Positions 4,601 to 44,780 of a stretch of 64,000 nucleotides of DNA are shown piece by piece. The position numbers and the translations under genes are program-made. Below the pieces are notes generated by a model. That model did no database searches and was not told where the DNA came from. It saw nothing but the letters and a program-made list of their open reading frames with translations. Positions within the stretch are counted from its first letter, which is position 1. Each line of letters opens with the position of its first letter. Source of the DNA: Chiridota heheva (taxonomy: Eukaryota > Echinodermata > Holothuroidea > Apodida > Chiridotidae); NCBI GenBank assembly GCA_020152595.1, contig JAIGNY010002242.1, positions 386,501 through 450,500 of the forward strand, given 5' to 3'.

Positions 4601-5249
4601 CTTATAGTTGATGTTTGTTTGTTTGTTTGATGAGGGCTTAACGCCACCACGAGAACGAGGGTCAAGATGTGTCTGAGAGGTTAGATCATTCTAGAGGTAG
4701 GAAGGAAAGAAAACGGGGCAATTGAGAGAAATACAAGAACAAAAAGTCCGAAAGCTGGGACCGAGAGAGGAGGTGCATGGGTGAAAGAAACAAAGTAAAG
4801 AGAGGGGATGGAAGAGGAGAACTAAATATGATTGTAGAGGGAAGCATGATGAAGGAAGGAGATAATTTTATCTGGAGGGTTTTTCTGGAAGAACTCAGCA
4901 ATTGAGTTGTGGGAGCAAAGGAAGCTCTGGGAAGGTTGTACAGGGGGCAAGCAAGGAGAACGTGATGGACTGTGAATGTGGAATGGCAATTATTGCAGAG
5001 GGGTTGGGGGAGCCAATAAGGAGGTGGGAGTGAGTGAGGTGGGTGTGACCAATTCTAAGACAGGTAATATGAACGTTGTCGACACGATAGAGGTTGTTGA
5101 TGGTGGGTTTGATCAAGATGGTGGGTTTGATCAAGATGGTGGGTTTGATCGGGATGGTAGCCTGGATGACGTGGAGTTTGTTATCAACTTAGGAGTCCCA
5201 TGAGGTTTGCCAGCGGTCACAAACAAGGGAAGCAACAAACGGTTTGATG

Positions 5250-5771
5250 TCAGAAAGGGTTTTGGGAAAAGGGATAGGGGTAAGTTAAGGGCAAACTTAG
5301 CGGCTGCATCAGCCCTGTCATTGCCAGGGATGCCAACATGGCTGGGTATCCAGAAGAAAAGAATACTTTTCTCGCAGAGTGTGGGCGAAAGGAGTTTTCT
5401 CCGGAGGAGGTGGGATGTGAAGTTATCCCATTTGAGATTGAGTAAAGAAGTAAGACAGCCTTGGAGTCGGAGAAGATGGCAAAGTGGCTGAGCGGAGAGT
5501 ACTCGATAAAGTTGAGGTAAAGAAGGATGGCTTTTTCCTCGGCTGAAAAGATGGACGAGTAGTCGGGAAGTCTGCTACTGAGGGTTATGTCTTGGATGAC
5601 AGCAGCAGCAGTGGTATTGTTGCCTTCCTTGGAGCCATCAGTATGGATGGAGGTGTAATTTGAGAGTTGGTCTTTGATTTGATTGTGGAGATTGATGAAG
5701 AGGTTAGGGTGGGGTTGGGTTTTGTGATGAGTGGGGAGGCCCAAGTGGATAGAAGGGAGGGGGTGGCCCAA
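5250..5771 (-). pseudogene. RNase H domain of the I-like LINE
   Basis: The minus-strand frame contains HTDGSKEG, SAEEKAIL and FSDSKAVL, which hold three of the four catalytic carboxylates of type I RNase H (D-E-D). The last motif, PGNDRADAA, is present at about 5300-5330 but lies in another frame, so there is a frameshift between them. RNase H follows RT, as in I-clade LINEs. Its role is to degrade the RNA strand of the RNA-DNA hybrid during insertion. It is non-functional here. Confidence 0.85.
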
Positions 5772-5899
5772 GGAGGAAAAGCGGGCCAGGAGAAGGTGCA
5801 GAGAGTGGCAGGGTTGATGCCGAGATGGAAGAGGTCTGATTTAATGCGTAAGCTAAAGGGAGGGATAGGGTTTTAGTCCTATCAAAGAGGGTGGAGAAA

Positions 5900-7433
5900 T
5901 TAGGGGAACCTAATAAGGTTGTAAACAGGGTTTTGGGTGTTGGTGGGGACTCTAAGTGCATAGGAGAGGCTAAGCTTTTTACATCTAAGTAGAAAGGGGG
6001 GTTCGTTGGCTTCAACATGAAAGTTGGTGATTGGGGAGGTCCCGTAGGCACCCAAGCAGAGCCCGAGGGCTTCATTTTGGATGGTATTGATGTGGTTGAG
6101 GTATGAGTTGTGAGCGACACAGTAGACAATATTGCCGTAGTTAAGCTTGGCATGAATGGTGAGCCTGAAGATTTTGAGAAGAGCATGGCGGTTCGCACCC
6201 CAAGTGGTGTTGGAGAGGAGGCGGAGATAGTTGAGGGAGCTGTTGCATTTCAGTTTCAGGTTGGTGATGTGCTGCTTGTAGGAGAGTTTGGGGTCTAGAG
6301 TTAAACCCAGGAACTTAGTGTGTTCAACTTTAGCGATGTGATTGCCATTGAGCACGAGGTTCGGGTTGGGGTGGAGGTTGTTGAAATGACAGAAGTGCAT
6401 GCAGACTGTCTTGTCTTTGGAGAATTTAAAACCGTTATTGTTGCACCAAACTTGCAGCTGGTTGAGACTGAATTGGAGTCTATTTTTGACAAGAGAAAAG
6501 CTAAGGGAGTAGTAGAACATGATGAAGTCGTCCACGTAGAAGGTACGCTTGATGTTGGGGCCAAGGTTGTCCACGATGTCATTAATGCTTAGGTTGAAAA
6601 GAGTGGGAGAGAGGATGCTGCCTTAGGGGACGCCCTCTTCTTGGGGGTAGGGGTTACAGAGGGTGTGGCCAATACGAACTTGAAACTGCCTGGGTGAGGC
6701 CAATGGTGTAAAGTTTGCGGATAATACCATATTTCCAAGTAGTGTCGAAAGCTTTCTCGAGGTTGAAAAAATGGCAATGAGGTGTTCCTTTTTTGCAAAG
6801 GATTCCTGGATAGCGGACTCGAGAGTAATTAAGTGGTCTAGGGTATTGCGACGTTCCTGGAAGCTCCTTTGGTGAGGGGAGAGGATTCTGTTGGTCTCAA
6901 GGAACCAGTTTAGTCTGGTTAATGATCCTTTCCATAATTTACAGAGACAGCAGGTGAGGGCGATGGGGCGGTAGCTGGAGGGGTCGGTACTGTCCTTCCC
7001 CGGTTTAGGGACGGGGGTGACAATGGCTGTCCTCCAGATAGAGGGAAGGAGTGTGAGGACCAAATGTGGTTGAAGATGAGATGGTGAGTAGGGTAGTGGT
7101 GGCCTTGTTGGGGAGGTGTTTCAGGAATTGGTAGGGGATGTTATCTGGGCCCTTGGAGGTGCAGCCATCGTTGTGCATGGCTTGGTTTAATTCAGGAAGA
7201 GTGAGAGGGGTGTTGTAATGCTTGGAGTTGTCAGAGGGAAAGGTGATACTCTGGGGATCATCGCGAGCATTTTTGGCTTTGAAAGCATTGGGGTAGTTGG
7301 CTGAGGACGAGATGTTGCTGAAAGAGGCGGCGAGGTGGTTAACGATGTCCTTTTTTGCGGTGAGAAGGTCACCAGCCCAGGAGAGATGGGAGATGGGAGA
7401 CTTACCCACCCTGCCGTGGACGCTGTTAATCAT
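5900..7433 (-). pseudogene. Reverse transcriptase domain of the I-like LINE
   Basis: Family motifs are readable across frames on the minus strand. IVTPVPKPGKDSTDPSSYRP is RT motif 1/2 (about 7.0 kb). GNMVLSANF is the out-of-frame shadow of the motif A region. GVP-stop-GSIL is motif B (about 6.62 kb), with TAA at 6623-6625 where the family has CAA (Gln). FYVDDF is motif C (Asp-Asp codons at 6527-6532). KFLGLTLDPKLSYKQHI is the thumb. Near 6762 a one-base deletion shifts the frame, and the restored frame reads FNLEKAFDT, so the first catalytic Asp is Asn. The enzyme would have copied the element RNA at a nicked chromosomal target. The nonsense codon and the ORF downstream of it are in the same frame, so that lesion is a single substitution. 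Confidence 0.85.
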
Positions 7434-7809
7434 TCTCCAAATCTTCTTAGTGGGGGTGTTCGTGGTAAGAGAAGAGATGAAGTAGTTCCAAGTGTTGGTT
7501 TTACTGTCCTTGATAGTGCGCCTGGCCTTGGCACGGCTGATGCAAAAGAGGTTGAGGTTGTGGGTGGCTGGGCTAGTTTTGAAGTTCCTAAGGGCCCTTT
7601 TCCTGTTCTTGATGGCAATTTTGCAGTATCACAGAGAACCAGGGGTTGGGTTGGTGATTAGGGGGTTTGGGAATTGAGCAGGTGGTGATGTTGATAAGGA
7701 TATTACTGAAGTTTGATATGGGATCCTCACCCTCGAGGAGATAATGTAGTCTTGCACAGTGCATGTAGGGCGGGGTTAGTTGTGAATTTTTGAGTGAATG
7801 GTCTTGTGA

Positions 7810-9740: not shown

Positions 9741-9744
9741 AAAA

Positions 9745-10672
9745 ATCCTAGTATACACAAAATACAGCAATGCCAAAAATCCTAGTATACACACAATACA
9801 GCATTGTCAAAAATCCTAGTATACACACAATACAGCATTGCCAAAAAACCTAGTATGCACACAATACAGCATTGCCAAAAAACCTAGTATACACACAATA
9901 CAGCATTGTCAAAAATCCTAGTATACACACAATACAGCATTGCCAAAAAACCTAGTATACACACAATACAGCATTGCCAAAAAACCTAGTATGCACACAA
10001 TACAGCATTGCCAAAAAACCTCGTATACACACAATACAGCATTGCCAAAAATCATAGTATACACACAATACAGCATTGCCAAAAATCATAGTATACACAC
10101 AATACAGCAATGCCAAAAAACCTAGTATATACACAATACAGCAATGCCAAAAATCCTAGTATACACACAATGCAGCATTGCCAAAAATCAGAGTATACAC
10201 ACAATACAGCATTGTCAAAATTCCTAGTATATACACAAAATACAGCATTGCCAAAAATCCTTGTATACACACAATACAGCATTGCCAAAAAACCTAGTAT
10301 ATACACAATACAGCAATGCCAAAAATCATAGCATACACACAATACAGCATTGCCAAAAATCCTAGTATACACAAAATACAGCATTGCCAAAAATCCTAGT
10401 ATACACACAATACAGCATTGTCAAAAATCCTAGTATATACACAATACAGCATTGCCAAAAATCATAGTATACACACAATATAGCATTGCCAAAAATCATA
10501 GTATACACACAACACAGCATTGCCAAAAATCCTAGTATACACACAATACAGTATTGCCAAAAATCCTAGTATACACACAATACAGCATTGTCAAAAATCA
10601 TAGTATACACACAATACAGCATTGCCAAAAACTATAGTATACACACAATACAGCATTGCCAAAAAAAAGCTA
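9745..10672. repeat. 34-bp minisatellite, about 27 copies
   Basis: The unit is tcctagtatacacacaatac followed by agcattgccaaaaa (34 bp). Copies differ by single substitutions or one base of A-run length. Because 34 is not a multiple of three and the unit has few stops, overlapping open frames appear on both strands (up to 118 codons). These are shadows of the array. The first units are more diverged (acacaaaatacagcaatg), suggesting growth from one side. Confidence 0.95.
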
Positions 10673-14699: not shown

Positions 14700-16960
14700 T
14701 GAAAAAAAGTAGTTAAATCCTCAGAAGGACCATTTGATTTAATGGTAGCCTCATCGCAATCATTTTCTTGTCAAGAATTCTTAAAAGTTGATAAAACACA
14801 TCATTAGTAAAGTATGTAACTATCAACAATGAGATCAATATTAGTATAGTACACCCACTCATGACCAATCATCATGACAATAAATAATCTAGCTTCAAGT
14901 TTGCTTTGGCGCTGTTCTGTTCACAGTTACATTTGCTGTGTAGACCTTTTCAAACTAATTTTAGTCCAACGTGATTTCTTTAGTACTTCAACCAATATAA
15001 TGCTGGGGGTATTTTTCCTTTTGTTTCCTAACCATGATTGGTGCAGTTTTGAGAAAAAAATTGAAGCAGCAATACACACACGTATTACCTTCATGTATAA
15101 CGCACGTACAGTATTAATACGTGCGCTTGAAAACATTTGTTTTCATACGCTTGGTCTTACTGTGTGTGAATGTGCAGATGGCCAAGAATCCCCCAGTATT
15201 TGATTGGACGATAAAATTCCCTAAGTAATCCATTGAACCATAAGGGACACGTGAATTTCGGTCATGTAATAAACTAAATTAGTTTTGCAAGAAATTGCAG
15301 ATTCAAATTTGAAAAGGTCTATACTATGTACAATAAGTTTGAAATAATCATATTAGAATAAGTTTGATTTCATATTTTACCACAACTTTCTCACTATTGA
15401 AAAGGATTTGCTACAAAATGCTAAACACTTTTTTATGTATCAGTAAAGTGTATGATGTATACAGTAGATGGGAAAAGCTACTATGATTTGTATTACAGTA
15501 AAACTCTATGACAAAACCATGGGAAAAATATATCATCACAATTAAATAGCAGGCTTCGCATTAACTACAAATTTATCGTATATTACGCTATGGCTAAAAT
15601 TTCTAACAACACATGTTGTACCTGCGTCGTGAAATTTTACGTCAGAGTTTTTCATTAACTTAAATGAAAATCTCACCTCTCTGATATGCGAATGAAAGTT
15701 TTATTTTACAAAATGATTTTGAATTACTCAGAAATAAATTAATGATGACACAACTACGAGACTAGTGGCCAAATGATTCAACATGTGTCCGTACAAGTAC
15801 TGTACATAAACACATATAGGCTAGTATTATAGTCAGTATATACATGTACACTGTACATAAAAGTTTTGATGTTGTTTTGAATGCAGGCTGTCAATTGTCA
15901 ACGATATCATTAGCTAGAATTCTAGTTTTCTACTTTTATTCACTAAAGCGAGGCAGGCCTACACAAGTTTGTGTGTATGTTAACTTAACAATACTTACAA
16001 GCTTCGCTAGCACGCAGTGAGCTGTACATTACGCAGTGCCTGTACATACAACAGCAAATTTACAAAATACGCCGAAAATCAAAAGCTTGTCGTAACCAAG
16101 TATGCCAGACAAAGAATTCTAATGCAACCTCTGTTGGTTAGTACTGTAGTGTAAATGTTGACTGTTTTGCAGTTTTCAAAAACAAATTTTAAACTCTTGA
16201 ATTGCATATTATACAACTATGTATGAATGGGCATAGCTATTCATTTTTATTTTTACCTAGTGTACCCCAATTAAGAAGTACCAAATATTCTACACAATCA
16301 TTAACAAAAAAACAGGTATTGAGTTCTTTCTACCTATTCCAAACATAAGAATGTCTGCATTTTCTATCAAAAATAATACATAATAATAATATTATTCTAA
16401 TAGGCAGGTTCCAATAAACAGGAAATTCTACCAGTCCAATTATAAACAGTATTTTCCACACAATGGTCCAATAAATGGGAATTTCTACATAACGGTCACA
16501 TTAAATGAAAATGCAATCATTCGGCCACACAGGTAATTGAGCAACTCAGAAGAAAATGCTGTAATTTTTCATAAAACCTTAGTATTTGAACATAATAGAG
16601 TTCTTACTTAGATCAATTGTACCCTGAAAACTAGTTTATTTATTTCATTTGGTGCAGAAATCGTAAACATGGCACCAATTTCAGCAGCGTAATTTTAGGT
16701 GACTTTAAAAAAAAAAATCTTAAAATAAAATCTTTACTCAGCCTTAATAGCAGCTTCATCTTTTATTAAACATGTAATTTAGACATTACAATTTGGATAC
16801 ATTTGTTACATACATGAGTAAATGTCATATCACGAACTGACTGAAAACTCAACATCAATACTGTAGTACCCACATATTACTTTAAATCAGACAAAAAATA
16901 TTAGCAACAGATGTTATAAGTATTATGCAATACAATTTCTTTAAATTCACACAATACCTA
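14700..16960. other. AT-rich stretch, no gene seen
   Basis: The stretch contains scattered tacatgtac and gtactgtac words and one 109-codon plus-strand frame (14874-15203) with no domain and no splice evidence. No array or inverted-repeat element was found before E1 begins at about 16.96 kb. Confidence 0.45.
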
Positions 16961-17380
16961 TATTTACCCCGCTAAGTGTAGCGGGAATATTTACGAGAGT
17001 TATACTGACCTTCCATGCTATAAATATGCAATTTGGTCACCTGACCTGATTTTAACGCACTTCTAACCAACCTCAAAAGCATAGTTACCAGCCCAGCCCT
17101 GACCTCCATATAACCTCTACTAACCCTCACTTAACATTTCACCGAGGCCTGAACGAGAGGGGAGGCGGGCGGGATGACTGTAGCAGTTGCGGAACCGTGT
17201 AGCTCTAGGCTACTCCTATCAACAGCGAAACTTGTATGAAGTTGATTGGAAAAGGTGTTAACGTACCGGTATGATGTATAGTTACAACCTTGGAAGTGCA
17301 GAGCCTATGGCTACGGATGTGGAGAAAACTAATACCGTATGTCTGTACGGGTAATTAACTAACAGGCCGTGATACCGTTA

Positions 17381-18424
17381 GAGCTGTGAACGTTTAGGGA
17401 TTTTAGTAAATGTGTACACGCCCAAAAAGCGAGCGTGTATCGTGTACACGCGTTTAGTACCGTAATTTTCGGAGTAAACCAAAATTGCTCCAAAACTACG
17501 AGGCGAAGTAAAAAAAATCGCATAACCAGTATGGCAAAAGTACTGACTCCATGGCCCAAATAGACGATGAGTTTTGCTTTCCAAATCGTAAAATGTTTAC
17601 CTCTACAGTATAAATCATCATTTTTATGGAAAATATGCATGGAAATTTAGTTTAGAAAGAACAGATAACTTCTTTTCAATGTCATTTAAACTCAGCATCG
17701 CGTAACTTTTTTTGTCCTATTCGCTACGGCTTTCAAAGTTCTTCTGTGAAAATCTTGCATAGGCCTATAATATACCTCGCCGTAAATTATTTCAAAACCA
17801 CGCCACAACCACCAGGAAGTTCTGAAATATCAGTCCTCTCGAAAAAATGGCGCCATCTTTGCGACGCATGCAGAATTTCAGCTCTTTAAAACTTTTTGTT
17901 TGTTTGTTTATTATGCAATATTTTTTCTTTCTTGCAAAATTTATTTGACTCATCAGGTAATATTTACATGTAAATGTACAGATTGTCATGATTAAAGTAT
18001 TTTTCACGTGTTTTTTGGACGATTTGACAGCTTGTAAAAGGGGCCTTGATTGCGTAGGATTTAAAGCCCTATGGCCTAACTTTAGGCCTATTGTTAGTTT
18101 CACTGTTTACTGCAGCACATTCGCGATGCATTTTACAAGTTAGATTACTCAGATTTCGGCGAATAAAGTACATAATATCCCCATTCATTAATGATTACTG
18201 CGCATTTGTAATTCGCACATTTAAAAAGGGTTATGCTAATCGGGTTTACAGTTTGTAAGGAGTCATTGACTGGAAATTTGTCAGCTGATTGTGTGTGATC
18301 ATAAATGATCATATTGATTTTCAATGGCAACACTATGAAAAACGATTACTCGCAATGAAGTATTTAGTAAACGTTTACAAGATTTGCGAGCGTGTAGCGT
18401 GTACACGCTAAACTGTCACAGCTC
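17381..18424 (-). mobile_element. TA-flanked non-autonomous transposon T1, copy 1
   Basis: The termini are inverted (GAGCTGTGAACG... and ...GTCACAGCTC), and each end is flanked by TA (17379-17380 and 18425-18426), as for Tc1/mariner-type insertion. Subterminal regions hold palindromic cgtgtacacg words at both ends. It splits E1: the E1 text resumes after it (aagccgcgttgaactgcc), matching E2 at about 40.26 kb. The copy at 57505-58678 lies in the opposite orientation. No transposase is present. An aaagatggcgcc start region at about 17851-17860 matches the small ORF region of copy 2, but with a frameshift. Confidence 0.85.
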
Positions 18425-18689
18425 TAAAAGCTGCAAGCCGCGTTGAACTGCCTTAAGAAAGTGTTAAAGTATAGTATGAACTATACGTGCCGTTGATTTT
18501 AGTAGCTACCCCGATTGTGAGATTGTCTATCAAAAGGCATCCTATTTCAAGAAAAGCATCCTTCATGGAGTTAATTTCGACAGGGGGTTTAACGTACTAC
18601 GTCAACTGTATGAGTCGTTAACCCAAGCACTGGGGTAAAAATCACGAAAGAATTGACGTCCTGTGTATACTACACGGGCGGTTAATTCC

Positions 18690-19080
18690 ATTAAACACCC
18701 TTCACCACGTAGCTGAGAAGTTTGTTGCAACGTGGGGGGGACTAACGCCGTACTCAGTACGCGTTCCTGTTAAGTAGTATAGAGCCGATATGGATCTACA
18801 AAGGCGTCAATGTGACAAGTAAGTTCTACTAGCCGTCCGCTCAGTTTGCCTCTGTTCACCACGGAGCAACAAAGCTAGTGGCTACGCGAGAAGGGAGGGG
18901 GACTACCGACGTGCTGCTACGTGTCCGTACTCAATACGCATTCCTGTTAGAATAGCTAAAAATATACAGGAGTCGTATGGGATATGGAGGAGTTCACATG
19001 CTATGCAAGCTATACGAGCCGTTAACTCTGTTTGTTTCACTACGGAGCTATAAAGCTGGTAGCTGCGTGGGGAAGATTAT
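18690..19080. repeat. E1 internal repeat: cacggagc...agctggtggctacg modules
   Basis: Variants of 'ttcacyacggagc-a-aaagctrgtrgctrcg' followed by g-rich gaaggggggacta recur about every 110-180 bp here and at 40.53-41.2 kb in E2. Each ends with gtactcagtacgcgttcctgttaag or a variant. Within each module the agctnnnagct and gtagct/gctacg words can pair. Coding potential is absent. Confidence 0.65.
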
Positions 19081-19202
19081 ATTCAGTGTAGTTTGGACGG
19101 TCGTGGAACTACATAACACGAAGAAAATAGCTTTGTGATGCTATGCCTCTCATGGAGATGGTTTTTTTTATCACCCGACTACCAAGCTTCGTAATCCAAG
19201 GA

Positions 19203-20560
19203 AGCGCTTACACGCAACGCATTGTGGGTCATCCTGGGTGTGTAACACACCGACATTCGAGGACCTATCCTCCGTGTCCATGATGCTGGTGAAATTTTTA
19301 CCGTGACGTTTAATGGGGAAATCTTACTAAGGAAGCTTATATGGACGTGGAACTGCGTAGCTGATGGCTACGATAACAAGAAGAAAAGAGCTCTCATAAT
19401 GCTATACTCCTTGTGAAGATTGTTACTTATCACCTGAACATGTAGCTTCATAGCTAAAGGGTCTATTTTCGGGTTTGTTGTACGTTACGTTATCCCACTA
19501 AAGAACTATGGAGCCGTACAGACCCATTCGCCGGAGCCGTATGGAACCAAAAACCGTTGGTTACGAAACTGTACGGACCTATACGAAGCCGTTCCATGAC
19601 CCATACGGAGCCGTAGGGCTGTGCCACGGACCCTTATAGGGCCGTGAAAACAAGCCACTGGGCTGTACGGAACCGATCACCGAAGCCGTATCGGACCCAT
19701 ATGGATCCGTGAAAGTAATCCAATGGCTCTACAACGAGCCGTAAAAAAATTTGTAACTTACATATAACCTCTTAGGGCGCCACCTCTTGTGGGCCTACTG
19801 GTCCCTTCACGGAACCGTGATCCACAGCGGTGTACACGGTTTTTTCTTTTGAATATCACCGGAGCTTAACTAAAAGAAGCATTTACAGGCGACACATCAC
19901 GGGACGTCTTGGGCGCATAGCACACTGACACTCAGGGACCTGTCCTCCGTGTCCATGATATTGATGAAAAATATTGAGGAACTGTAACGTTCAACGCGAA
20001 AATCTTACTGAGGCAGTTTACACGGCCGTGGAACTGCGTAGCTAATGGCTACAGAAACAAGAAGAAAATAGCTTACATGATGCTATACTTCTTGCGAAGA
20101 TTGTCACTTATCACCTGACCAAGTAGCTACGTAGTTAGCGGGTCTATTTCCAAGTTTATTGTACGGTGTACATTATCCCGTTACAAAACTCTGGAGCCGT
20201 ACAGACCCGATCACCCGAGCAGTACGGTTTAAAGAAGCGTTTACACACGACACATCGCGGGACACCTTGGAAGCGTGATGCACCGATACTTGGGGACCTG
20301 TCGTCCGTGTCCATGATTCTGGTGAAAAATATTGCGGAACTGTAACTTTCAACGCGGACAATTTTATTAATGCTGTTCACAGGGATGTGGAACTGCGTAG
20401 CTAATGGCTGCAGGACCAAGAAGAAAATAGCTCACATGATGCTATACTTCTTGCGAAGATTGTCACTTATCACCTAAACACGTAGCATCGTAGCTACCGG
20501 GTCTATTTCCAGGTTTATCGTACGGTGTACGTTATCCCTTTACAAAACTCTAGAGGCCAT
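19203..20560. repeat. E1 internal ~345-bp tandem units (three)
   Basis: Units at about 19203-19530, 19878-20212 and 20233-20560 share the same order of words: gcg(c/t)ttacacgc-acgcat, cctgtcctccgtgtccatgat, ggtgaaaaatattgcggaac, gtggaactgcgtagctaatg, aagaagaaaatagct, gaagattgtcacttatcacc, and tctatttccaggtttatcgtac. Homologous units occur in E2 at about 41.48, 42.07, 42.42 and 42.93 kb. Each unit holds the hairpin GTAGCTAATGGCTAC. Units b and c are more alike than either is to a, so expansion occurred after the element was assembled. Confidence 0.8.
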
Positions 20561-20960
20561 ATGGACCCATTCACAATGGACCCGTAAACACGGGCCGTGG
20601 AGCCGTATGGAGCCGTCTAATGGACCCGTAAACACGGGCCGTGGAGCCATTCAATGAACCCGTAGGAAACCATAAACACAGGCCGTATGGAGCCGTCCAA
20701 TGGACCTGTAAACACAGGCAGTGGAGCCGTCAAATGGATCCATACGGATCTGTAAACACGGGCAGTGAAGCCGTCCAATGGATCCATATGGATCCGTAAA
20801 CACGGGCCGTGGAACCATATAGAGCCGTTCAATGGACCCGTACGAAATCGTAAAGACAAACCGTGGAGCCGTATGGAGCTGTCCAATGGACCCGTACAGA
20901 GCCGTTAACACGGACCCATATGGAGTCGTGAATACGGGCCATGGAATCGTATGGATTCGA
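20560..20960. repeat. E1 hairpin array, CCCGTAAACACGGG class
   Basis: The region is built from alternating words 'ggagccgtatggagccgtcc', 'aatggacccgtaaacacggg' and close variants, at intervals of about 45 bp. CCCGT-aaac-ACGGG forms a 5-bp stem with a 4-base loop, and CCGTAYGG words are themselves palindromic. The same array is in E2 at 43240-43510. Open frames on the minus strand (up to 122 codons) only reflect the repeat. Confidence 0.8.
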
Positions 20961-22814
20961 TCCCTGGTGCCGTACGGACCAGAAAGGACTTGTGACTCAC
21001 GTATAACCTCTTTGGGCACCGCCTTTACGTAGCCCTACAGGTCCCTATCGCGAAACCGTGGACCACAGTGGTGTACAATGGGTTTACCCACTAAAAATAT
21101 GCGCCTCTCACAACTAGTAATCTTATCGAGAAGGGGGCGCTTCTTTATAGTGATTTATTCTGAGTGATATCTAGGACGTCACTTAGTTTATCAATATAGA
21201 CTCAGGAAACTTGCGTCTGATAGAATGCACCCGTAGCCCTGCCAACTCAGTAATCTATCGAGTCAGGGGCCTTCAGGGGGTGAATCAGGAAAAAGTTAAG
21301 AAAGTAAACTATAAACACAGGCCTCTTCGACTCAGTAATTTATTGAGATGGTGGCCATGGCGTAAGTAGAAACTCTGAGACTAATTGATTTATGTCGCCT
21401 CTTGGCGTTTTTCTGAGAAGTAAAAAAATATATATAAATATATACATATACACTGACACCAAGACTACCCTACGGGGGATGTACTTATGACCCTTACGCG
21501 GGTGAGAGGGGTCTGCAGGAGACGTCAAACAGAGAGGCAAGCCACAATTATTTAGTACATAAAACAAATTATCAGAAAAATTACTATCTGAAAAGAAAAT
21601 GCACCTAACTTGTAAATTCCTAAAAAGCGTAGGGGTAGCGTGGAAAACATGAACCACTGAGTAGCTTGAGGTCTGTGGAGATAAAAAGAAAAGATTAGAT
21701 CTTCTGTAAAGAGGACGTCAGAGAAACCCCCTCAAGGTCTCTCCAACGCCCCAAAATTCAAGCTTGAAAATTTAAAACAAATACATGATATGCACTGGTA
21801 ATGTTAAATAAAATATAGGCTCTCTTATAACAACTGTAGCTCCTTGGAGTGGTAAAAAGCAGACTCCTTGAACACCCTGTGGTGACATCGACCCAATACG
21901 CATGTGCCACCATCGATTGAAGGAACTGGCCTAATGTGTACGAGAACCTGTACTGAAGATATCCTAATATGTTAATACAATGCATAGCATAACGCTAGGT
22001 TCTCCTCATAAAAGGGCGGGGCCGAGGGTGAAAAAGACTTAAACCCAGGGGCAAGAGGTCCACTAGACAGGCACACTTGGTGCTCTAGGGCCTAAAAACA
22101 CCCGCCGCGAGAGTGGGACTCTCTCGAACTAGCCACCCGCTTTGTACAGATGGAGACAAAAACACTCTATCCTAAGTGTAGGCTAAATGGGAAAGTCCCG
22201 TGAGACGGACCAAAGAAATCCAGGACCCATGGCTACCTTGTCTTACCTCTGAAGACTTAAAAAGGCGAACCGAATAAGGCTGAACAACGTAAAAAGCTGC
22301 CTGGTAGAAGCTGCAAGAGAGAAAATTGTTAGAAAAAGGTTCAATTTATAAAAGAAAATTTGACCAGTTCTAGCGATGTTGAGATAACAACGCGCTGAAA
22401 AGAAGTGAGAGTTAGTAGAGGTTACATTGAGGTCATGGTTGGGCTGGTAACTACGTTTTGAAGGTCGTTTAGATGTGACTTAGAATAAGGTCATGTGACC
22501 AGGTTGCATATTTATAGCATGGAAGGTAAGGTATAAGTTGAAGTAAATTCTCATAGTATTATGTCAATTATTCATATTTCAATATCTTAACATATGTCAC
22601 AAAAGCTCTCACTAAAAAAAGGGTTTACATACATTACATGTAATATAAGGAAAGAGAAATACAATTACCAGATGGCTTTAGCCGAAGCAATTTTCAATAT
22701 GTTTAATTGCTGTAAGAAGTGACATATTGACTGTTTATTTTCAGCCTCAGTAAGCTAATAAACTATTCTTGGATGAAATGGTAAATTGTAGATTCTCGCT
22801 AGAATGGTAAATAC

Positions 22815-23830
22815 CGCCATAGTTCTCATGCCCATACAAATTGACACCCATATCATAAGGCCTGGCCAATTATAAAAATGGCACCTCACACTAAGTCCCA
22901 CATGGCATCCCATGTTCCACATGGCATACAACCCCATGTCCCACATGACATCCCATCCTGCCCTTGTCCCACATGGCATTCCACCATCTCTCGTACAGTG
23001 CATTCCACCATATGTCCCACAACGCACTCCACCATATGTCCCACATTGCATCCTATCCAATGACCCACATGGCATCCGTATGTCCCACATGGCACACCAT
23101 GTCCCACATGGCATCCCACTCTATGTCCCACATGGCATAACATGTCCCACATGGCATACCATGTCCCACATGGCATACCATGTCCCACATGGCATCCCAC
23201 TCTATGTCCCACATGGCATCCCACCTATGTCCCACATGACATCCCCTCCCGTGTCCAACATGGCATTCCACCATATCTCCCACATGGCATTCTACCATAC
23301 AGTATGTCCCACATGGATCCCATCCTATGTCCCACATTAATCTAACTATATGTCCCACATGGTATCCCTCCCTATGTCCCACATGGTATCCCTCCCTATG
23401 TCCCACATGACATCCCTCCTTAAGTCACACATGGCATTCCTTCCTATGTCCCCCACATCATCCCACTTTATATTCCTGCATCAGTGGCTTCCCACCTGAT
23501 ATTCCACATGGCATCCCAACTTATGTCTCAAATTTGATTCCACCATATGTTCCCATCCTACTTTATATGTCTCACATGGCATCACATCTCACATCCCTGT
23601 GGCCTCGTACCCTATGTCCCACATATCCTCCTACTCTATGTCCCAAATTCTCCTACCCTATGTCACACCTGTTGAGTCAAATAATTAATGCCTTGGTTTC
23701 ATACCACAAGGTATATATTCTATCCTATGTCCCGCATGACCCCCATCCATGTCCCATATGACATCCCTCCTTATGTCCATATGCAGTCACATCCTGTCAC
23801 ACTCCCCGACAAAACATACTAAGTAAACTA
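22815..23830. repeat. Composite 19-bp satellite, unit 1
   Basis: It begins with a conserved flank, tgcccatacaaattgacacc then ccaattataaaaatggcacc. A degenerate 19-bp array of atgtcccacatggcatacc follows. It ends with a conserved tail, gtatatattctatcctatgtcc ... tgtccatatgcagtcacatc ... catactaagtaaa. The 19-bp period gives a 19-residue repeat in all frames on both strands, which explains the many overlapping open frames. Units 2 and 3 share the same flank, so the array travels or duplicates as a block. Confidence 0.85.
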
Positions 23831-23835
23831 GAACA

Positions 23836-26145
23836 GTAAACACCATCATGGTTCGCATGCACATGCAAATTGACACCCATATCATATGACCTAGCCAATT
23901 ATAAAAATGGCATCTCACACTAAGCCCAACATGGCATACCATGTCCCATATGGCATACCATTACCACATGGCATAACATGTCCCAACATGGCATACCATG
24001 TTCCATATGGCATACCATTACCACATGGCATAACATGTCCCACATGGCATACCATGTCCCACATGGCATACCATGTCCCACATGGCATACCATGTCCCAC
24101 ATGGCATACCATGTCCCACATGGCATACCATGTCCCACATGGCATACCATGTCCCACATGGCATACCATGTCCCACATGGCATACCATGTCCCACATGGC
24201 ATATCATGTCCCACATGGCATACCATGTCCCACATGGCATACCATGTCCCACATGGCATACCATGTCCCACATGGCATACAATTTCCCACATGGCATACC
24301 ATGTAGCACATGGCATCCCACCCCATGACCCCCACATGACATCCCTTTCCATCCCTTATCCCTGCATGGCATTCCACCATATCTCCCACATCGCATCCCA
24401 CCCCATGAGTCACATGACATCCCATCCCATCCCTTGTCCCATGTGGCATTCCACCATATGTCCCACATGGCATCCCATTGTATGACCCACATTGCATCCC
24501 ATCCTATGTCCCACATGGATCCCATCCCATGTCCCATATGACATCCCACCCCATGTCCCACATGATATCCCATCCCATGCCTTGTCCCACATGGCATTCC
24601 ACCATATCTCCCATATGGCATTCCACCATATGTCCCACATGGCATCCCACACTATGACCCACATGGATCCCATCCTATATGTATGTGACACATTAATCCA
24701 ACCATATGTACCACATGACATCCTCCCTATGTCACACATGGCATCGCACTCTGTGTCCCACATGGCTTCCCTCCCTGTGTCCCACATGGCATCTCTCTTT
24801 GTGTCCCCCATGGCATCCACCTCATCAGTGGCTTCCCATCTGTTGTCTCACGTGGCATCCCACCTTATTTCTCACATTGAATCCCACCATATGTTTCCCA
24901 TGGTATACCTCCTAATGTCCCAATGACATCCTACTTTATGTCCCACATGGCATCACAGTCTTATGTCCCCATGGCCTCCCAACCTATGTCACATTGTGTT
25001 ACTCGTGGCATCCAAACCATGTCCCACATGGCATCCCACCCTGTTCCATATGGCATCCCAACCCATGTCCCACATGGCATCCCACCCATGTCCCACTTGG
25101 CATTCCACCCCGTGCCCCACATGGCATCCCACTCCATGCCCCACATGGCATCCCACCCCATGTCCCACATGGCATCCCACCCCATGTCCCACATGGCATC
25201 CCACCCCACATCACACATGGCATCCCACCCCATGTCCCACATGGCATCCTACCATATGTTACACAAGGTATCCCTCCCAATGTCATCCTATTTTATGTGA
25301 CCACATCATATCCCATGTCCCCATGGCCTCCTACCCTATGTCCCACATAGCCTCCTACTCTATGTCACACATTGCATCCTACCTTATGTCACACATGGCA
25401 TCCAAACCTATGTTACACTCTGTGTTACTCATGGCATCCCACCATGTCCCACATGGCATTCTACCCTGTTCAACATGGCATCCCACCCCATGTCCCACAT
25501 GGCATCCCACCCCATGTCCCACATGACATCCAATAAGCTCCATAAGAAGTCTCATCCTAGAAATCAGTCCCTGATTGAGCATACTATGTATGAAAGTGTC
25601 AGTTCATATAATAACTTATATGCAAATGACTTGTTGAAATGGGGTGGGACCCCATGTGCCACATGACATCCCATATTCCCATGTCCCATATGACATTCCA
25701 TCCCATGGCATTCCACCCTATGTCCTGCATGGCATTTCACCATATATCCTATATGGCATTCCACCCTGTTCCACATGGCATCCCACCCCATGTTCCACAT
25801 GGCATCCCACCCCATGTCCCACACGGCATCCCGCATGGCATCCCCGCCCCATAGGCTTCATAAAAGTCTCATTCTAGCTATCACAGTCCCTGATTGAACA
25901 TACTATGTATGAAAGTGTTAGTTCATATAATATACAAATAATATGCAAATGAATTGTTGAATAAGAAAAAAAGGTAAAGTCAAATAATCATGCCTGATAT
26001 AGCCCTTGGTGTATACCACATGGTATATATTATATCATATGTCCCTCGTGGCCCCCATCCATGTTCCACATGGCATCACTCCTTATGTCCATATGCAATC
26101 ACATCTTGTCACACTCCCTGACTAAGCATACTAAGTAAAACAGTC
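23836..26145. repeat. Composite 19-bp satellite, unit 2 (with homogeneous core)
   Basis: The same left flank (gttcgcatgcacatgcaaat ... ccaattataaaaatggcatc) is followed by the array. Between about 24020 and 24300 some 15 units are almost identical (atgtcccacatggcatacc), then the array degenerates. Two internal segments of non-satellite sequence, 'catactatgtatgaaagtgt' and 'agttcatataat', appear at about 25580 and 25900, and a tail matching unit 1 at 26010-26140. The homogeneous core suggests recent slippage or gene-conversion growth. The 192-codon frame at 23907-24485 is a by-product of the array. Confidence 0.85.
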
Positions 26146-30449: not shown

Positions 30450-31175
30450 TTTACTCGCCTCAGTCTCATTTGTTGTAAGCATTTGTCTGAATTCTTTCTT
30501 CGGAGTCGAGTAGAAGCTTATTTAGTATAACAAGGGGTGGTACTGCATTAGGATAATAACAGTAACTATTTGAGAGAAGCTAATTCTGAAGTTCAGAAAT
30601 TGTCTCTGAATCATAACGCTCGCCTCACGGAATTGACCATATGAGGAAAGGGGGAGAGATAGAGTGGAAATATGTTAAGAGAGGAGAGAGATCTGGGATG
30701 GAAATCAAAGCAGAGAGTTGAAGTTAATTGACATGTTAATGAAGCAGGTCAATAGTATCATAAAGGTTTTAACAAAACTAACTTAACACATTATCAAACA
30801 AAAAATAGTCCCTTTTTTAATTGAAATGCAAAATCACAAACTAATTTTCTCTAATAAACGCCCCGGGCGTTGCATTTGGAAAACACATTATCAAACAAAA
30901 AGTTTCTTTATTTTTGTCCATTTTTTATTATTAATGGAATAACTCTTTGCAAAATCAGCCTTTTCAAGTCACAAAGTTTGACGTTGTTACATCCTGAAAG
31001 TATGAAAAAACTTTAAACGTTTATTTAATGGATATCTCCTTAACAGAATAAGATTTTTGAATGCTTTCTTCACTATTTTGTTTCTTTTAAAGTCCTTTTT
31101 CATCTAAAATGACATGCTTGACCCCTGAACAAATCCTTTAAACCCAACCACACTGCCAAATATCATGTTGCAATG
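30450..31175. other. AT-rich stretch with short direct repeats
   Basis: The 'cacattatcaaacaaaaa' word occurs near 30.79 and 30.89 kb. A segment at about 31040-31145 (ttttgaatgctttcttcact, tttgtttcttttaaagtcct) recurs at about 61565-61670, so it is part of a dispersed repeat. No gene was seen. Confidence 0.45.
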
Positions 31176-36409: not shown

Positions 36410-37780
36410 TCAGCTGACAACTTTGAACACCAAGTAAAATGGATAAATTATAAATAACATCTTTTCAGGTGTATTGATCAGCACTATTTTTTGTTGTTGT
36501 TGTTGTAAATATTTGTATGCTTATTGTATTTTTCCTAAGATTTTGTGGCTAACTGCACCTCCAAACACAATGTAGTGCTGTATATACTTTTAATTCATCA
36601 GGTCTACAACCCATTTCCTATCACCTGGGATACTGTATGTTTATTGATAAGGGATCGTTTTAATCTTGGTTTGATTAAACTTGTTTTATAATTTAAAATC
36701 ATAATCAGTTATGACTTGACGTTATTAAATTCATGAATGAATTTAAATATTTTGATGTGATGTACTAATAATATTCTGATGTGAATTTTCCGATGTGATG
36801 TTCACATACTATTGATAGGCCCTAATAATACTTCGATATGATGTTTGAAACTCCCATTGCGTTTCAATATTGTCGAACGTTTTTACTCAATTCAGATCTT
36901 TCCTTCATTACTTAACTGAAAGGGCATGGCAATATTGTTATGTTATAACAACACTATGGCTACTCGTCGTTTAATATCAATTGTTTCGCAGTGGCGATGG
37001 CTTGTGAAACTAAACAAAATATCTCCCGATTTTGTCATTTTCAAACTTGCCTGTAAAGCGGTGGTAAAGCCGCCGGTAAAAGGCCAAAAAAACTCGCCAG
37101 TGTCAAACTGCTCGCATTGGTACTGTAATGGAAAAACCAGTTGTCAGCTGTAGATAATGTTATAGATGCTTTAGAGAGATTTCTCGTATTTCTTTATGAT
37201 CAAACAAGTTCTCAATAGACACCATACGGATGAGTTTAGGGTCAACCTGTTTCGATTTTGGCTTATTTAACTGCTTAAGTTTGTAATCAGTGCTTGGATT
37301 ATATCGGGATTATTGAAAATAAAGTTTTGTTTTAAATTATTTTGCAGGATTGCTTACCTACGGTATGTTTGTTACATAATTTCTTCAATGAAAAACTAGA
37401 TTTGTTAGTGAGTAGTATTGTGATTTTTGTGGTTGTTTTCATTCTCTTGAAGACATTCCATCATTTGTAATTAAAATGACTGAGCCCCATTTACCATTTA
37501 TTTTCCATGAACTTTCAGCTTCCATTTACTGTATCAGTTAGGATATAAAATTACCACTCTCATTTCCACTCATTTATAGTATCTACCCCAACATGGAAAT
37601 GCAATCCATTCCCAAAATGGCAGTAGGCTTTGCAAGTTTGCATGAGAGGATAAGTGATTATGCACATAAACAGTATAGAATAATGTCACTGGATAATTAC
37701 GTCCTCACTTACGGTTAAACCGACCGTAATGGTGACAACTGTACGTTTATGAAAAAAATGCTAACCGTCACATATACATG
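36410..37780. other. AT-rich stretch, no gene seen
   Basis: Contains a degenerate 'attttgatgtgatgt' run near 36.75-36.84 kb. It ends in a tatatatata tract that borders E2. No coding or transposon feature is supported. Confidence 0.45.
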
Positions 37781-37804
37781 TATATATATAAATATATATA
37801 TATT

Positions 37805-38073
37805 AACCCCGCTAAGAGTAGCAGGGATATTTACGAGAGTTATACTTACCTTCCATGCTATTAATATATGCAATCTGGTCACATGACCCGATTCTAACGC
37901 ACTTCTAACCGACTCTAAAAAACGCAGTAACCAGCCAAGCCCTGACCTCCATAATACCTCTGTACTACCACCTCACTCAACATTCCACCGAGGCCTGAAC
38001 GAGAGGGGAGGCAGGCGGAATGCATGGAAGGTAAGTATAAGTCTCTTAAATATCCCCGCTACACTTAGCGGGG
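37805..38073. mobile_element. 269-bp palindromic module at the E2 left end
   Basis: Both ends of this module are the E-type terminus in inverted orientation: accccgctaagagtagcagg ... and ... cctgctacacttagcggggt-like, extending through gttatacttaccttccatgc / gcatggaaggtaagtataag. The right edge is the perfect hairpin CCCCGCTACACTTAGCGGGG (38054-38073). Its interior matches the terminal ~180 bp of E1 and E2. It looks like a minimal deletion derivative joined to, or inserted beside, the full E2 terminus. Confidence 0.7.
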
Positions 38074-40060
38074 TAAATTTACTTCAAGTTATACCTTACC
38101 TTCCATGCTATTAATATATGCAATCAGATTGCAACCGAGGATAGAAAGGAAGGGAGTTCAGGTCGCAGCACATTTTTTGTTCTTCTTAAAATGGCTGGTA
38201 CGAAAACTCACACTAATCGAATCCCGTTTAAAGGACGAAATTCCTTCTCCTCTTAAGGATGAAAGACCTCAGAGTGGGAAGAACTAAAACATAGTAAACC
38301 ACGTCTAGTCACAGTCAAACCGAACAAGGCACCATTTGTTGACAGTAATGGAGACAAATATCGAATGACCCTGAGCCAAAAACTCAGAAGAACAAGCCAA
38401 TCGGAAGAGCGTTTGGACACAATATGAATATCAGCAAAGTGTCTACAAAAAACGCCACAAACCACACCGGATTCGTCCACGAGACGGAACCGGCTAGTAA
38501 ACTACCATTGGGAACGAAGCGTGTACTAACTAAAACGACTTGAAGAAATCCCGGACAAGGAAAAAATTTGTTAACGCGTAACCCGCGTAAGAGCAAAAGT
38601 TAGCGGGGTAACACAAACGTCGAAAAGTGAGTCAGACCAAAAACAAGAGAAAAACCGCGAAAAGCGGTTTCCCGAACGGCGGCACGAGAGATCCCGTGAA
38701 AAGAGGCTATGCCCCGAACTCGAGTGCATACCGCGGCCGTTTTATAAACAGATCAGACTACTTGGAAAGAAAGTTACTGGACGATCTAACGGAGGAATAT
38801 GACACATGATACACTACAAAGAGATCTCCGTGTAACTTCCTAGTGGTCGCGAGTCAAAGACCGTAGACCCAACTGGAAAACCTTGGTGGATAGCTGCAAG
38901 TTATCCCAGAGCTCATGACTGAAGCAAGTTTGAGAAAGGGCCGACCTCCACAACGGGGAGGGGGGTGAACAACCTCTCAGAAAAACCATGCTACGTCGAG
39001 GAAAGGCGCACTAAGGCCACACCATCAAACAAAGCGCTCCGGGACTGAGATGCAGTCTGCCAGAGCCCGGGAAAGAGACAAAAATCGTACCCTGACCCGA
39101 GGCCGAACGTGAAGCCTGCAAGGTCTTAAGCAGCCGCAGTGAGCCGGGAAAAGTGGGCGCTATCGGCCGTACGTCGCCTAGCGTAGCATACTTGGTACTA
39201 GCATGAAAGGTGGAAAACGTAACCCACATACTTGAGTTCTGAAGAAAACAAATGCGTCGACCCTGAAACCCGCGGGTCAGGAGAAAGGACGCAAAGAAAA
39301 GATAGCTTGCGATCATCCACAGATGCGGACAGACCTACGTCCGAGGGACTGATAAAGGTCCTGATCGCTCTGGTCACCTACGGGAAGAACGCCCATCAAG
39401 TGGGGGTTCCGCTGAAACGGGACTATAGTGATAGTGTACTCGTAGTCCGAGGTGAGCGGCCGTAAGGCTGGCTTAGTTCGTCCTGTGCTGAGACGAGAGG
39501 AACGATTCCAGAAAACTCTTGGAGGCCGTTCCTATCTGTCTGAAAAGGAGACTACAACAGTGGTGCAAAAACGGCGCGACACTGAAAAAGCCTCGCTCAG
39601 CACTAGCGGTAAAAGGTGAACAGAAAAACCCAGGCATTTCGCCCGTTAAAAAAGGCCAAGTACCCGTCCAAGTTTCCGTCATAAGGGGTCACAAGAAAAG
39701 CGCCCCTACCTCGATCAAGACGCATCCGTCGGCACTGACGGTGAAATAAGATGGGTGAAAACTTTGTTCCTCACACCAGGTGGGAGCATCCGCACCACCA
39801 CCAAAGGGGGTGGCCACCGACTAATCGTGTAAAGCGGAGATACTGAATGACACCATCTTCAGTCCAGAAAAGACTACTGACCCTGAGCAAAGTTTGTTTA
39901 AACTTTACTGAACTAGACCAAAGGCTAGCGAATTTAAAAGGCAGGCCGTTAATATAAAACGTATACAAAAAGGGCTGCAAACCGTGTAAGGCTGTGAGAC
40001 GGTTTTGGGTCATAAGACCGCGGAGCCGTACAACATAGTCGACGGCACCGAAGCGGTGTC
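38074..40060 (+). other. E2-specific interior, no recognisable product
   Basis: GC-richer than the flanks. Open frames such as 38627-38809 (60 codons, rich in Arg/Lys) and 39519-39749 (76 codons, Lys-rich) have basic composition but no motif I recognise. The frame beginning at the ATG at 38191 is broken by many stops, at about the density expected by chance. It may be the remains of an internal gene or simply non-coding. Confidence 0.3.
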
Positions 40061-41479
40061 TGAAAACTGTAGCAGTTGCAGAACAGCATAGCTTCAGGCC
40101 ACTCCTATCAACAGCGAAACCTATCTATGAAGTTGACTGGAAAAAGGTGTTAACGTACTACGTATAGCAACAACCTTGGAACTGCGGAGCCTACGGCTAC
40201 GAGTGTGGAGAAAACTAATACCATATGTCTGTACGGGTAGTTAAGTAACAGGCCATAAAGCCGCATTGAACTGCTTTAAGGTGTTAAAGTATAGAATGAA
40301 CTATACTTGCCGTTGTTTTTAATAGCTACCCCGATCGTGAGGTTGTCTATCAAAAAGCCACCTATGTCAAGAAAAGTATCCGTCATGGAGTTAATTTTGA
40401 CAGGGGGGGTGTAACGTACAACGTCAACCGTACGAGTCGTAAACCCCAGCACTGGGGTAGAAATCACGAAAGAGTTGACATCCTGTATATACTACATGGA
40501 CCGTTAATTCCGTTAAACACCCTTCACCACTGAGCTGAGAAGCGCGTGGCTACTGGGGGGACTTACGCCGTACAAAGTATGCATCCCCATTAAGTATTAT
40601 AGAGCCGTTATGGGTCTACAAAGGCGTCAGCATGACAAGTAAAAACCACTAGTCATCCGCCAAGTTTGTCTCTGTTCACCACAGAGCAATAAGCTAGTGG
40701 CAACGCGAGGGGGACAACTGGTACTGGTACGTGTCCCTAACGTAATAGCTATCAGTACAAAAGAAACGTCTAGGTCTACGATAGCGTTAATGTACTACAT
40801 CCGTAACGTGAGTCGTTACCTCAGTATACTTCTATTCACTACGAGGCCACCGAGTAAGTGGCGACGCGTAGGGAAGTTGTACTCCGTATGAGTTCCTGGA
40901 GAGAATAGCTAAAAATATACTGGAGCTGTATGGAATACGGAGGAGTTCACGTGATACGCAAGCTATACGAGTCGTAAACTTAATTTGTTTTATCACGGAG
41001 CTACGAAACTGGTAGCTGCATGGGGAAGAGGGGACTACCGTCGTACTCAGTATGTGTCCCAGTAAGAAAAACGGTCGCGGAACTCTGTAGCTCATGGCTA
41101 CTGGTCCTCTACCATACAGCTGTGCTGCAGGTGTAGGCCGTTAACTCCGTTTGTATATATTCACTACGGAGCAGCGTAGCTGGTGGCTATGCGTGGGGAA
41201 CTGCCGATGAACGCTAAAAGCGTCCCGGTAAGAAAAATGACCGCGGAACACTGCAACACGCGGCTAACGGTCGCAATATCCCAAAGTTCCGTTACCCAGG
41301 TTTATCGTACATAGTACGTAAAACCACGTCAATATCTGTATAATTCGAGCGGAACGTCTCGTTTGACGCAAAAATCATATTCAGAGTAGTTTGAACGGTC
41401 GTGGAACTAAGTAACACGGAGAAAATGGCTCTCGTGAAGGTATGCCTCCCGTAAAGATGGCTTTCTTATCACCCGAGCG

Positions 41480-43240
41480 CTGGGCCTCGAAACCTGAGCA
41501 AGCGCTTACCCGCGACACATCCTGGGAGCGTAACGTACCAACAAACAAAGACTCGTCCTCGTGGCCATGATACTGGTCAAAACTATGCGGAACTGTGACG
41601 CTCAACGTGGAAATCTCACCAAGTCAGCTCAAACGGACGTGGAGAAGAAAAAGCTCTCCTAAGATTGTTACTATCACCAGACCATGTAGCTAAAAAGCTA
41701 AAGGGTAAACAATCGGGTGTGACGTACGTTGTGACGTACGTTGTACCTTACCTTGCTGCAGAACTATGCAGCCCTAACGGACCCAAACGTCATCCCATGA
41801 CCCGTACGGAGCCACCAAACTGTTTTACGGACCCTTACAGGGCCGTAAAAACAAGCCGTGGGGCCGTAAGGAACCGATCACCGGAGCCGTACGGACGCTG
41901 AGGGACCTGTGCAAGTAATCCAATGGCTCTACAACTAGCCATAAAAAGGTTACTAACTCACATATAACCCCGTAGGGCGCCGCCTCTAGTGGGCCTTCTC
42001 ATCACGGAACCGAGGACCACAGCGGTGTACACGGGTTTGATCATGTCGGTAACCCCGGAGCGCAACGTAAGAAGCGGTTACATGCGACGCATCGCAGGAC
42101 ATCTAAGGCGCTTAACACACCGACACTAAGGACCTGCCCTCCGTGTCGATGATAGAGGTGAAAACCATCGCGGAACTGTAACGTTAAACGCGGAAAATCT
42201 TACTGAGGCAGTCCACACGGCCGTGGAACAGCGTAGCTGATGGCTACAGAGACAAGAAGAAAATAGCTCTCATGATGCTATACTTCTCGTGAAGATTGTC
42301 ACCTATCACCTGTACCAAGTAGCTTCCTAGCTAGCGGGCTCAATTTCCGGGTTCATCGTACAGTGTACGTTATCCCGTTGCAAAAACTCTGAAGTAAATG
42401 CGGGCCCGCACGGTCAGAGAAGCGTTTGCACGCTATGTATCGCGGGACCTCTTAGGTGCGTAACGTACCGACACTCGGAGGTCTGCACGGCCTCTGTGCC
42501 TATGATACTAGTGAAAATAATTGCGGAACTGTAACGTTCAACGCGGATAATCGTATTAATGGTGTTCACATGATCGTGGAACTGCGTAGCTAATGGCCAC
42601 GGAACCAAGAAGAGAAAAGCTCTCACGGCGCTATACTTCTTGTGAAGATTATCACTTGTCACCTGGCCACATAGCTTCATAGCTAGTGGGTGTATATCCG
42701 AGTAAATCGTACGGTGTACAATATCCCGTTACAAAACTACGGAGCCGTACGCATCCGATCACCGGAGCCTCACTCTCTCAGACGCACCTTGAAAACATCT
42801 GTCGCAGTGGAGTCTGTGCTCCGACCACGCCACTTGAACCCAATCGCTGCAAAGAGTACAAAGAATAAACTAGCAGCATAATCTGCACGCGTAACGCGTG
42901 AGATGGATGTCACCGAGCGTAAATCAACGACATGTTAGCACGCTACGCCGGGACATTATGGGTGTGTAAAGCATCGACACTCTGTGACCTGCCCTCCATG
43001 TCCATGATACTGGTGAAAATAATTACGGAACTGTAACGTTCAACGCAGACAACCAAAATTGCGTTCACACGAGCCGTAGAACTGCGTAGCTAATGGCTAC
43101 GGGACCAAGAAGAAAATAGCTGTTGTGATGCTATACGTCTTGTAAAGAATGTCATCTGTCATCTGACCACGTAGCTTAGTAGCTAGTGGGCGTATAACCG
43201 GGTTAACCTTACAGTGTACGTTATCCCGTTAAAAATACGT
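41480..43240. repeat. E2 internal ~345-bp tandem units (four)
   Basis: Units near 41480-41760 (shortened), 42070-42410, 42420-42770 and 42930-43240 repeat the E1 word order, including cctccgtgtccatgat, actgtaacgttcaacgcgga, ggaactgcgtagctaatggc and agaagaaaatagct. E2 has one more unit than E1. The third unit is followed by a 150-bp insertion-like segment (about 42780-42930) with no E1 match that I can see. Confidence 0.75.
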
Positions 43241-44684: not shown

Positions 44685-44689
<5 letters not shown>

Positions 44690-44736
<47 letters not shown>

Positions 44737-44780
44737 TATATAAATATATATAAATATATATAAATATATAAATATATAAT
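44690..44780. repeat. TA microsatellite
   Basis: A pure (TA)n run followed by taaatatata units. Together with the tract at about 37775-37804 it brackets E2, consistent with insertion into a TA-rich target. Confidence 0.9.

Follow-up and report, generated by a model that had tools for sequence, protein, structure and literature searches.

We analysed a 64,000-nucleotide stretch of the Chiridota heheva genome (C2223:386501-450500, hereafter the window, from whose first base all positions are counted unless a contig is named) and searched the assembly of 1,100,099,931 bases in 3,744 contigs for relatives of what it contains. The window holds two copies, E1 and E2, of a large inverted-repeat element without a recognisable transposase. 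An initial annotation had described them as collinear members of a family unlike an ordinary miniature inverted-repeat transposable element (MITE), and this description is supported: alignment places E1 at 16962-22549 and E2 at 37802-44690, within a few bases of the coordinates first given. E2 is near full length, while E1 has arisen by deletion and holds an unrelated insert. The family is dispersed in many copies with defined inverted ends, has an AT target and lacks recognisable coding capacity, and it includes deletion derivatives that keep both body ends; there is good support for its being a DNA transposon mobilised in trans. The most likely mobiliser of this large non-autonomous element seems to be an ISL2EU-like cut-and-paste transposase, a tentative reading to which we give a probability of about 0.42.

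Seven further E2-type copies (L047-L053) align to E2 with 88.5-94% identity along its first ~5.7 kb, with internal gaps in L050 and L051, and the matching right part is then present in six of the seven; their right termini fall outside the stretches fetched. E2-type copies start with a head of ~275 bp, which has inverted ends of its own (95% over 58 nt in L048) and a CCCCGCTAAGCGTAGCGGGG hairpin, and which joins the body through a single AT, in the form GGGGTAA-AT-TTACTTC. The features of the two copies in the window are as follows.

16962-22549, plus strand: E1, internally deleted family copy, left head part fused to body interior (alignment to E2)
16962-17176, plus strand: E1 head, left part only (whole head ~275 bp); terminal hairpin 16968-16985 (DNA fold z -2.94)
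17000-17132, plus strand: E1 left inverted terminus (85% over 135 bp)
17369-18430, no strand assigned: E1 nested insert, unrelated and not in E2 (E1 17368/18435 match E2 40254/40258)
19198-19541, plus strand: E1 ~345-bp unit 1
19873-20224, plus strand: E1 ~345-bp unit 2
20231-20572, plus strand: E1 ~345-bp unit 3
20554-20937, plus strand: E1 degenerate minisatellite of CCCGTAAACACGGG-type motifs
22403-22536, minus strand: E1 right inverted terminus, pairing with 17000-17132
37802-44690, plus strand: E2, near full-length copy, sitting in an (AT)n tract
37802-38078, plus strand: E2 head unit with inverted ends; terminal hairpin at 37808-37826 imperfect (DNA fold z -1.22)
37838-37978, plus strand: E2 outer left inverted terminus, 97% to 44538-44679 (142 bp)
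38070-38085, plus strand: E2 head-body junction GGGGTAA-AT-TTACTTC
38077-38125, plus strand: E2 body, inner left inverted end, a perfect 49-bp match to 44641-44689 at the right end
42069-42395, plus strand: E2 ~345-bp unit
42418-42769, plus strand: E2 ~345-bp unit
42949-43239, plus strand: E2 ~345-bp unit
43278-43504, plus strand: E2 minisatellite of hairpin motifs
44538-44690, minus strand: E2 right inverted terminus, plain end ...GGTATAACTTGAAGTAAAT

The inverted termini proposed earlier are present, but a length above 150 bp is not clear, with BLAST giving 135-142 bp and one gapped alignment ~154 columns. The GC-richer interior and the ~345-bp tandem units of the initial annotation are both found. 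GC per kb is 0.39-0.49 across E1 and 0.45-0.51 over most of E2; at 26-37 kb of the window it is 0.28-0.34, and at 47-64 kb 0.32-0.40. Each copy carries three of the units. In the alignment E1 is without a counterpart of E2 38022-40066. Between E2 positions 43504 and 43509, six of the seven other E2-type copies hold 0.8-1.3 kb of extra sequence, which consists of a GGAACCGT-type minisatellite and adjoining sequence. By eye, the nested insert of E1 has inverted ends of ACACGC type and appears similar to a 116-bp tandem repeat at 57933-58167.

The absence of a recognisable transposase is upheld by short reading frames and by Pfam. The longest stop-to-stop frame of E2 is 180 amino acids, and a Pfam scan of all six frames across E2 38126-44643, and of two of the six frames of E1, gives nothing above a cut-off; the E2 frames are rich in stops, the two that were counted having 126 and 98. 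Other copies have longer frames, which reach 322 amino acids in L049 (L051 frames that run through stretches of N being left aside) and fall within the minisatellite. As for other origins of the interior, two motifs had no exact match in viral_contigs and one 702-bp stretch had no match in a phage collection, no tRNA was found, and Rfam gave no match at E≤1 in 16900-22600 and 37750-44800.

A high-copy family of head-body composites

Whole-genome motif counts place E1 and E2 in a high-copy family, which is young and non-coding. At ≤1 mismatch the body-end motif has 4,366 matches (2,188 and 2,178 on the two strands; control 1, 1+0), the head-body junction pattern 1,329 (670+659; control 0) and the head-end motif 2,386 (1,197+1,189; control 0). 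Assuming two body ends per copy, the first count suggests ~2,180 bodies, or perhaps 2,000 copies. A right-internal 24-mer has 710 genome matches at ≤2 mismatches, well below the number of bodies, and many end pairs may therefore be diverged or right-deleted copies.

The lengths of individual copies were taken from the first 100 body-end places (exact matches, contigs C1-C103), and among the matches listed there are 26 facing pairs less than 11 kb apart, ranging from 1.6 to 10.9 kb with a median of 7.5 kb. Near-full length is the commonest size, with 15 of the 26 pairs at 7.0-7.9 kb and 6 under 5.1 kb, and all pairs but one (25/26) exceed 4 kb. Non-autonomous DNA transposons are expected to shrink, and the E family contrasts with this expectation, being ~7.5 kb long without recognisable genes and present in perhaps two thousand copies, the commonest of which, among the 26 pairs, are near full length. 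E2 and the seven E2-type copies lie 0.6% (L047) to 3.4% (E2) from the column majority over the first ~5.5 kb; since the seven were selected from the top matches of a stretch of E2, this divergence describes the young end of the family. The best 39 right ends besides that of E1 itself are 89-91% identical to it.

The CpG content of the copies was also noted. The observed/expected ratio is 1.04-1.16 in E2 38130-43510 and 0.38-0.41 in three flanking stretches, and CpG transitions between copies amount to 3.7%, compared with 2.0% at other C/G positions; taken together, the high ratio and the transition rates suggest that the copies may be little methylated.

The composite structure of these copies is unusual, in that a head and a body, with a single hairpin end, spread as one fused unit. 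The outer part of the head and the right end match over 142 bp, and in E2 the body carries a separate inverted repeat, perfect over 49 bp; the two outer ends are unlike, one with a hairpin and the other plain. Both body ends are retained in the shorter copies L055, L054 and L056 (1.6, 4.8 and 4.9 kb). A related arrangement is found at L033:3040-9401, where two long elements stand in direct tandem, linked via a degenerate terminal-hairpin unit (22 of 27 bases, by eye), possibly an ancestor-like state of the head-body composite. Under the favoured reading the head would be the internally deleted remnant of the first element of such a tandem dimer, which then would have spread as one unit, and the GC-rich interior may have been expanded by tandem duplication and carried along.

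Two other candidates were considered and set aside. The head as an independent MITE is not favoured: head ends number 2,386 and junctions 1,329, a ratio of 1.8, so that the heads do not seem to spread alone, although solitary heads may exist. The shorter copies were considered as autonomous partners, but L054, L055 and L056 align to E1 and E2 as internal deletions, and their longest stop-to-stop frame is 171 amino acids (Pfam search not made on these frames).

Insertion at AT and the candidate mobilisers

Right ends were read in 34 copies, namely L001-L030 (L001 being E1), L054, L055, L056 and E2; L005 and L016 may represent a single insertion, their flanks being 99% identical over 300 bp, and the first right end of L033, which runs into the hairpin unit, is excluded from the count. 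AT stands at the expected position in 28 of the 34, with the preceding four bases altered in L014 and L054, and the base that follows is T in 11, A in 15 and C in 2 of these 28. The AT target is seen directly at one filled site and three uninterrupted relatives. L038 is inserted within another repeat, which also follows L005, L016 and L020; the uninterrupted relatives of its site read TATGTATTCTATC (L005, L009) and TATGTATTCTATT (L020), and the filled site reads TATGTAT/TTACC...GTAA/ATTCTATC, slashes marking the borders of the element. Four left ends (E2, L047, L050, L051) lie in AT-rich tandem tracts. Within the window, 31043-31140, 61511-61657 and 60269-60440 resemble the repeat (TTAAAGGATTAGTTCAGTGG...) found beside or around the insertions in L005, L016, L020 and L038.

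These AT targets point to ISL2EU of the PHIS superfamily, as described in the available excerpts of PMC4482050 and PMC9179366. The excerpt of PMC4482050 further describes AT duplications, DDE/THAP and YqaJ proteins, and a conserved A before and T after the AT; the portion available of PMC10294476 makes no mention of ISL2EU. We propose that a trans-acting transposase would read the ~150-bp subterminal inverted repeat and cut beside an AT dinucleotide, and that its likeliest source would be an ISL2EU-type (PHIS) cut-and-paste transposon, whose ends would be TTAC...GTAA and which would duplicate AT at the target site. The host genome gives 90 profile matches to DDE_Tnp_4 and 10 to YqaJ, 8 of the latter without a stop, and the two are paired 1.4-2.7 kb apart at C1435, C2218, C58 and C3263. 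Two of these places, L057 (C1435:198700-203900) and L058 (C2218:1441800-1447500), look like ISL2EU-like loci, with DDE_Tnp_4 and YqaJ facing each other. The E elements thus share with non-autonomous ISL2EU derivatives the AT target, the inverted ends and a host with paired DDE and YqaJ genes; they differ in being ~7.5 kb long and non-coding, in the lack of a conserved T after AT, in their unequal outer ends and in that no shared ends were seen in the stretches of L057 and L058 that were read.

Several observations weigh against this assignment. There is no clear AT in 6 of the 34 right ends (L008, L013, L015, L017, L026, L028), and the AT pattern itself fits either a 2-bp duplication with TTAC...GTAA ends or insertion between A and T without duplication. 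The conserved T reported for ISL2EU follows AT in only 11 of 28 cases (right ends only). The unequal outer ends, hairpin at one and plain at the other, are unexpected for a symmetric terminal inverted repeat (TIR) transposon. In all four DDE/YqaJ pairs, one match is broken by one or more in-frame stops (the search ignores introns), and no E ends occur in the 5.2 and 5.7 kb fetched for L057 and L058, within which the termini of those loci themselves were not located.

A second candidate is a cut-and-paste element of another, perhaps undescribed, DDE superfamily that targets AT. The long inverted ends, the AT target, the DDE genes of the host and the unconserved T after AT would all be in keeping with such an element; set against them, no such transposase is linked to E ends in the two DDE-bearing loci that were read (other transposase families were not searched), and we regard this alternative as doubtful, at about one chance in four.

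A serious rival is a rolling-circle element of Helitron2/Helentron type, which we hold to be slightly less probable again. Read on the minus strand, the plain end would be the 5' end, the hairpin head end the 3' terminator, and the head-body fusion a rolling-circle tandem product. According to the available part of PMC3627910, the inverted repeats of Helitron2 are 8-15 bp long and lie 0-2 bp and ~20-30 bp from the ends. In the E elements the minus-strand 5' repeat starts at the terminus and the 3' repeat stops ~27 nt short of the end, with a 20-nt hairpin immediately downstream of it, a placement that resembles Helitron2 (PMC3627910) and HINEs (PMC4067079) as far as the excerpts of these sources describe them. 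Asymmetric inverted repeats and a 3' hairpin are thus found (hairpin z -2.94 in E1, -1.22 in E2), insertion between A and T is compatible with the L038 site, and head-to-tail junctions abound (1,329 head-body junctions and the L033 tandem). The ends are also polar, a hairpin on the plain end occurring at 6 places at ≤1 mismatch compared with 2,386 head ends. The pattern used for that count is longer than the head-end motif and misses degraded cases such as L033; at ≤3 mismatches it has 345 matches, and among the matches listed three more with two mismatches are clear, nearly all the listed two-mismatch matches being the ordinary inner junction. Against a rolling-circle origin stand the length of the inverted repeat (142 bp at 97%, not 8-15 bp), the absence of a hairpin at the 5' (plain) end, where the DNA fold z is 0.08 in E2 and -0.19 in E1, and ends that are not TC...CTRR; moreover, the host has 11 partial Helitron_like_N matches, 10 of them with stop codons, despite the youth of the family.

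We file the element in no family, because for every family at least one defining feature tested was not found in it. With Helitron2, Helentrons and HINEs it shares the asymmetric inverted repeat, the hairpin at one end, central tandem repeats, a non-coding interior, possible insertion between A and T and head-to-tail fusion; it differs from them in its 142-bp repeat, in the other end being without a hairpin and in a host whose Rep matches nearly all contain stops. MITEs likewise are non-coding, with inverted ends, AT-rich targets and high copy number, but the E elements are mostly 7-8 kb (pairs measured), are composites of head and body and have a tandem, GC-rich interior; a MITE is short, under about 0.6 kb, and the E family falls outside that size. 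Foldback or inverted-repeat elements such as Tetris and Galileo, as described in the excerpts of PMC4079207 and PMC4168063, also link inverted repeats to tandem repeats or long arms; the tandem units of the E elements are internal and not in the inverted arms. No element of this architecture appeared in the literature titles and abstract beginnings searched, a scope that excludes most subscription papers, Repbase and Dfam and does not establish absence from print. The family makes the role of a non-coding interior in mobility testable, and bears on how AT-targeting cut-and-paste elements may be told from rolling-circle ones.

Hairpins and folding of the interior

The initial annotation had spoken of dozens of short hairpins, and had suggested that they could be recognition sites, structured RNA or replication signals. 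We counted perfect stems of ≥6 bp with ≥3 GC and a loop of 0-12, using 20 shuffles as control. An excess exists in E2, with 20 stems compared with 8.5±3.3 in shuffled sequence, but the description is overstated, as the excess is weak in E1 (10 vs. 7.3±2.6) and exact motifs are few: GTAGCTAATGGCTAC occurs 1+1 times, CCCGTAAACACGGG 2+2 and CCGTACGG 1+4. For stems of ≥7 bp the counts are 9 vs. 3.4±1.7 in E2 and 6 vs. 2.2±1.7 in E1, whose nested insert gives 3 when scored separately; the flanks give 9 vs. 5.7, 10 vs. 4.0 and 7 vs. 2.5 for stems of ≥6 bp. The one clearly positioned hairpin is the head-terminal CCCCGCTAAGCGTAGCGGGG, which the initial annotation had not named. The mean fold z per 120-nt window is -0.77/-0.61 (plus/minus strand) in E1 and -1.23/-1.03 in E2, and +0.07 to -0.24 in the flanks. 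The fold excess is modest but real, similar on both strands and slightly greater on the plus strand.

A check for compensatory change, as suggested with the initial annotation, was run on an alignment of 29 of the 44 ~345-bp units found, using five named helices, and lends little support to conserved pairing. The helices pair in 89.4% of cells compared with 88.7% in shuffles, and changes on both sides of a pairing occur in 8 of the 869 cells and in 4 of the 31 pairs. None of 500 shuffles reaches 8 double-changed cells, whereas 93 of 500 reach 4 pairs; controls in which the helices were slid give 0-7 double-changed cells and 0-6 pairs. RNAalifold returns -6.36 kcal/mol for the 392 columns. Non-standard cells on the plus strand include 49 A.C and 25 G.T, two column pairs giving 23 of the 49, and because A.C outnumbers G.T on that strand a plus-strand RNA is not favoured.

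We consider it very unlikely that the interior makes a selected structured RNA, or hairpin small RNAs, and is retained for that reason. The fold z of about -1.1 in E2 compared with about 0 in the flanks, the 8 double-changed cells unmatched in 500 shuffles and the 15 of 26 pairs near full length would be in keeping with such an RNA. On the other side, both strands fold nearly alike, Rfam is silent at E≤1, slid controls reach 7 double-changed cells, A.C exceeds G.T on the plus strand (49 and 25), the hairpin excess of E1 is weak, and conservation along the E2-type copies is even up to the minisatellite. Palindromic repeat DNA spread by tandem duplication fits better than a plus-strand RNA, although a minus-strand RNA is conceivable. 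Covariation is weak, and the functions suggested earlier for the hairpins are not borne out; selection may act on some function of the interior hairpins, but the support for this is weak.

One further reading, which we judge improbable, takes the family as a non-coding transposon that is polar and derived from a dimer, and that retains its long GC-rich interior for action in cis. The fused head and body would spread with a hairpin resembling a terminator at just one of the two ends, and replication, or the recruitment of a borrowed Rep or transposase, would depend on the internal palindromes. If true, this would make the family a new type of large non-autonomous element between the TIR and rolling-circle kinds.

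Other sequence features in the window

A strongly C-skewed minisatellite of CATGTCCCACATGGCATCCCACC units occupies 22878-25832 and 53693-54034. On the minus strand, the frames at 4686-7628 read like pieces of a reverse transcriptase of long interspersed nuclear element (LINE) type, a resemblance noted by reading, with no search made. Tandem arrays with units of 34, 42 and 60 bp lie at 9741-10665, 45479-46523 and 60752-61221.

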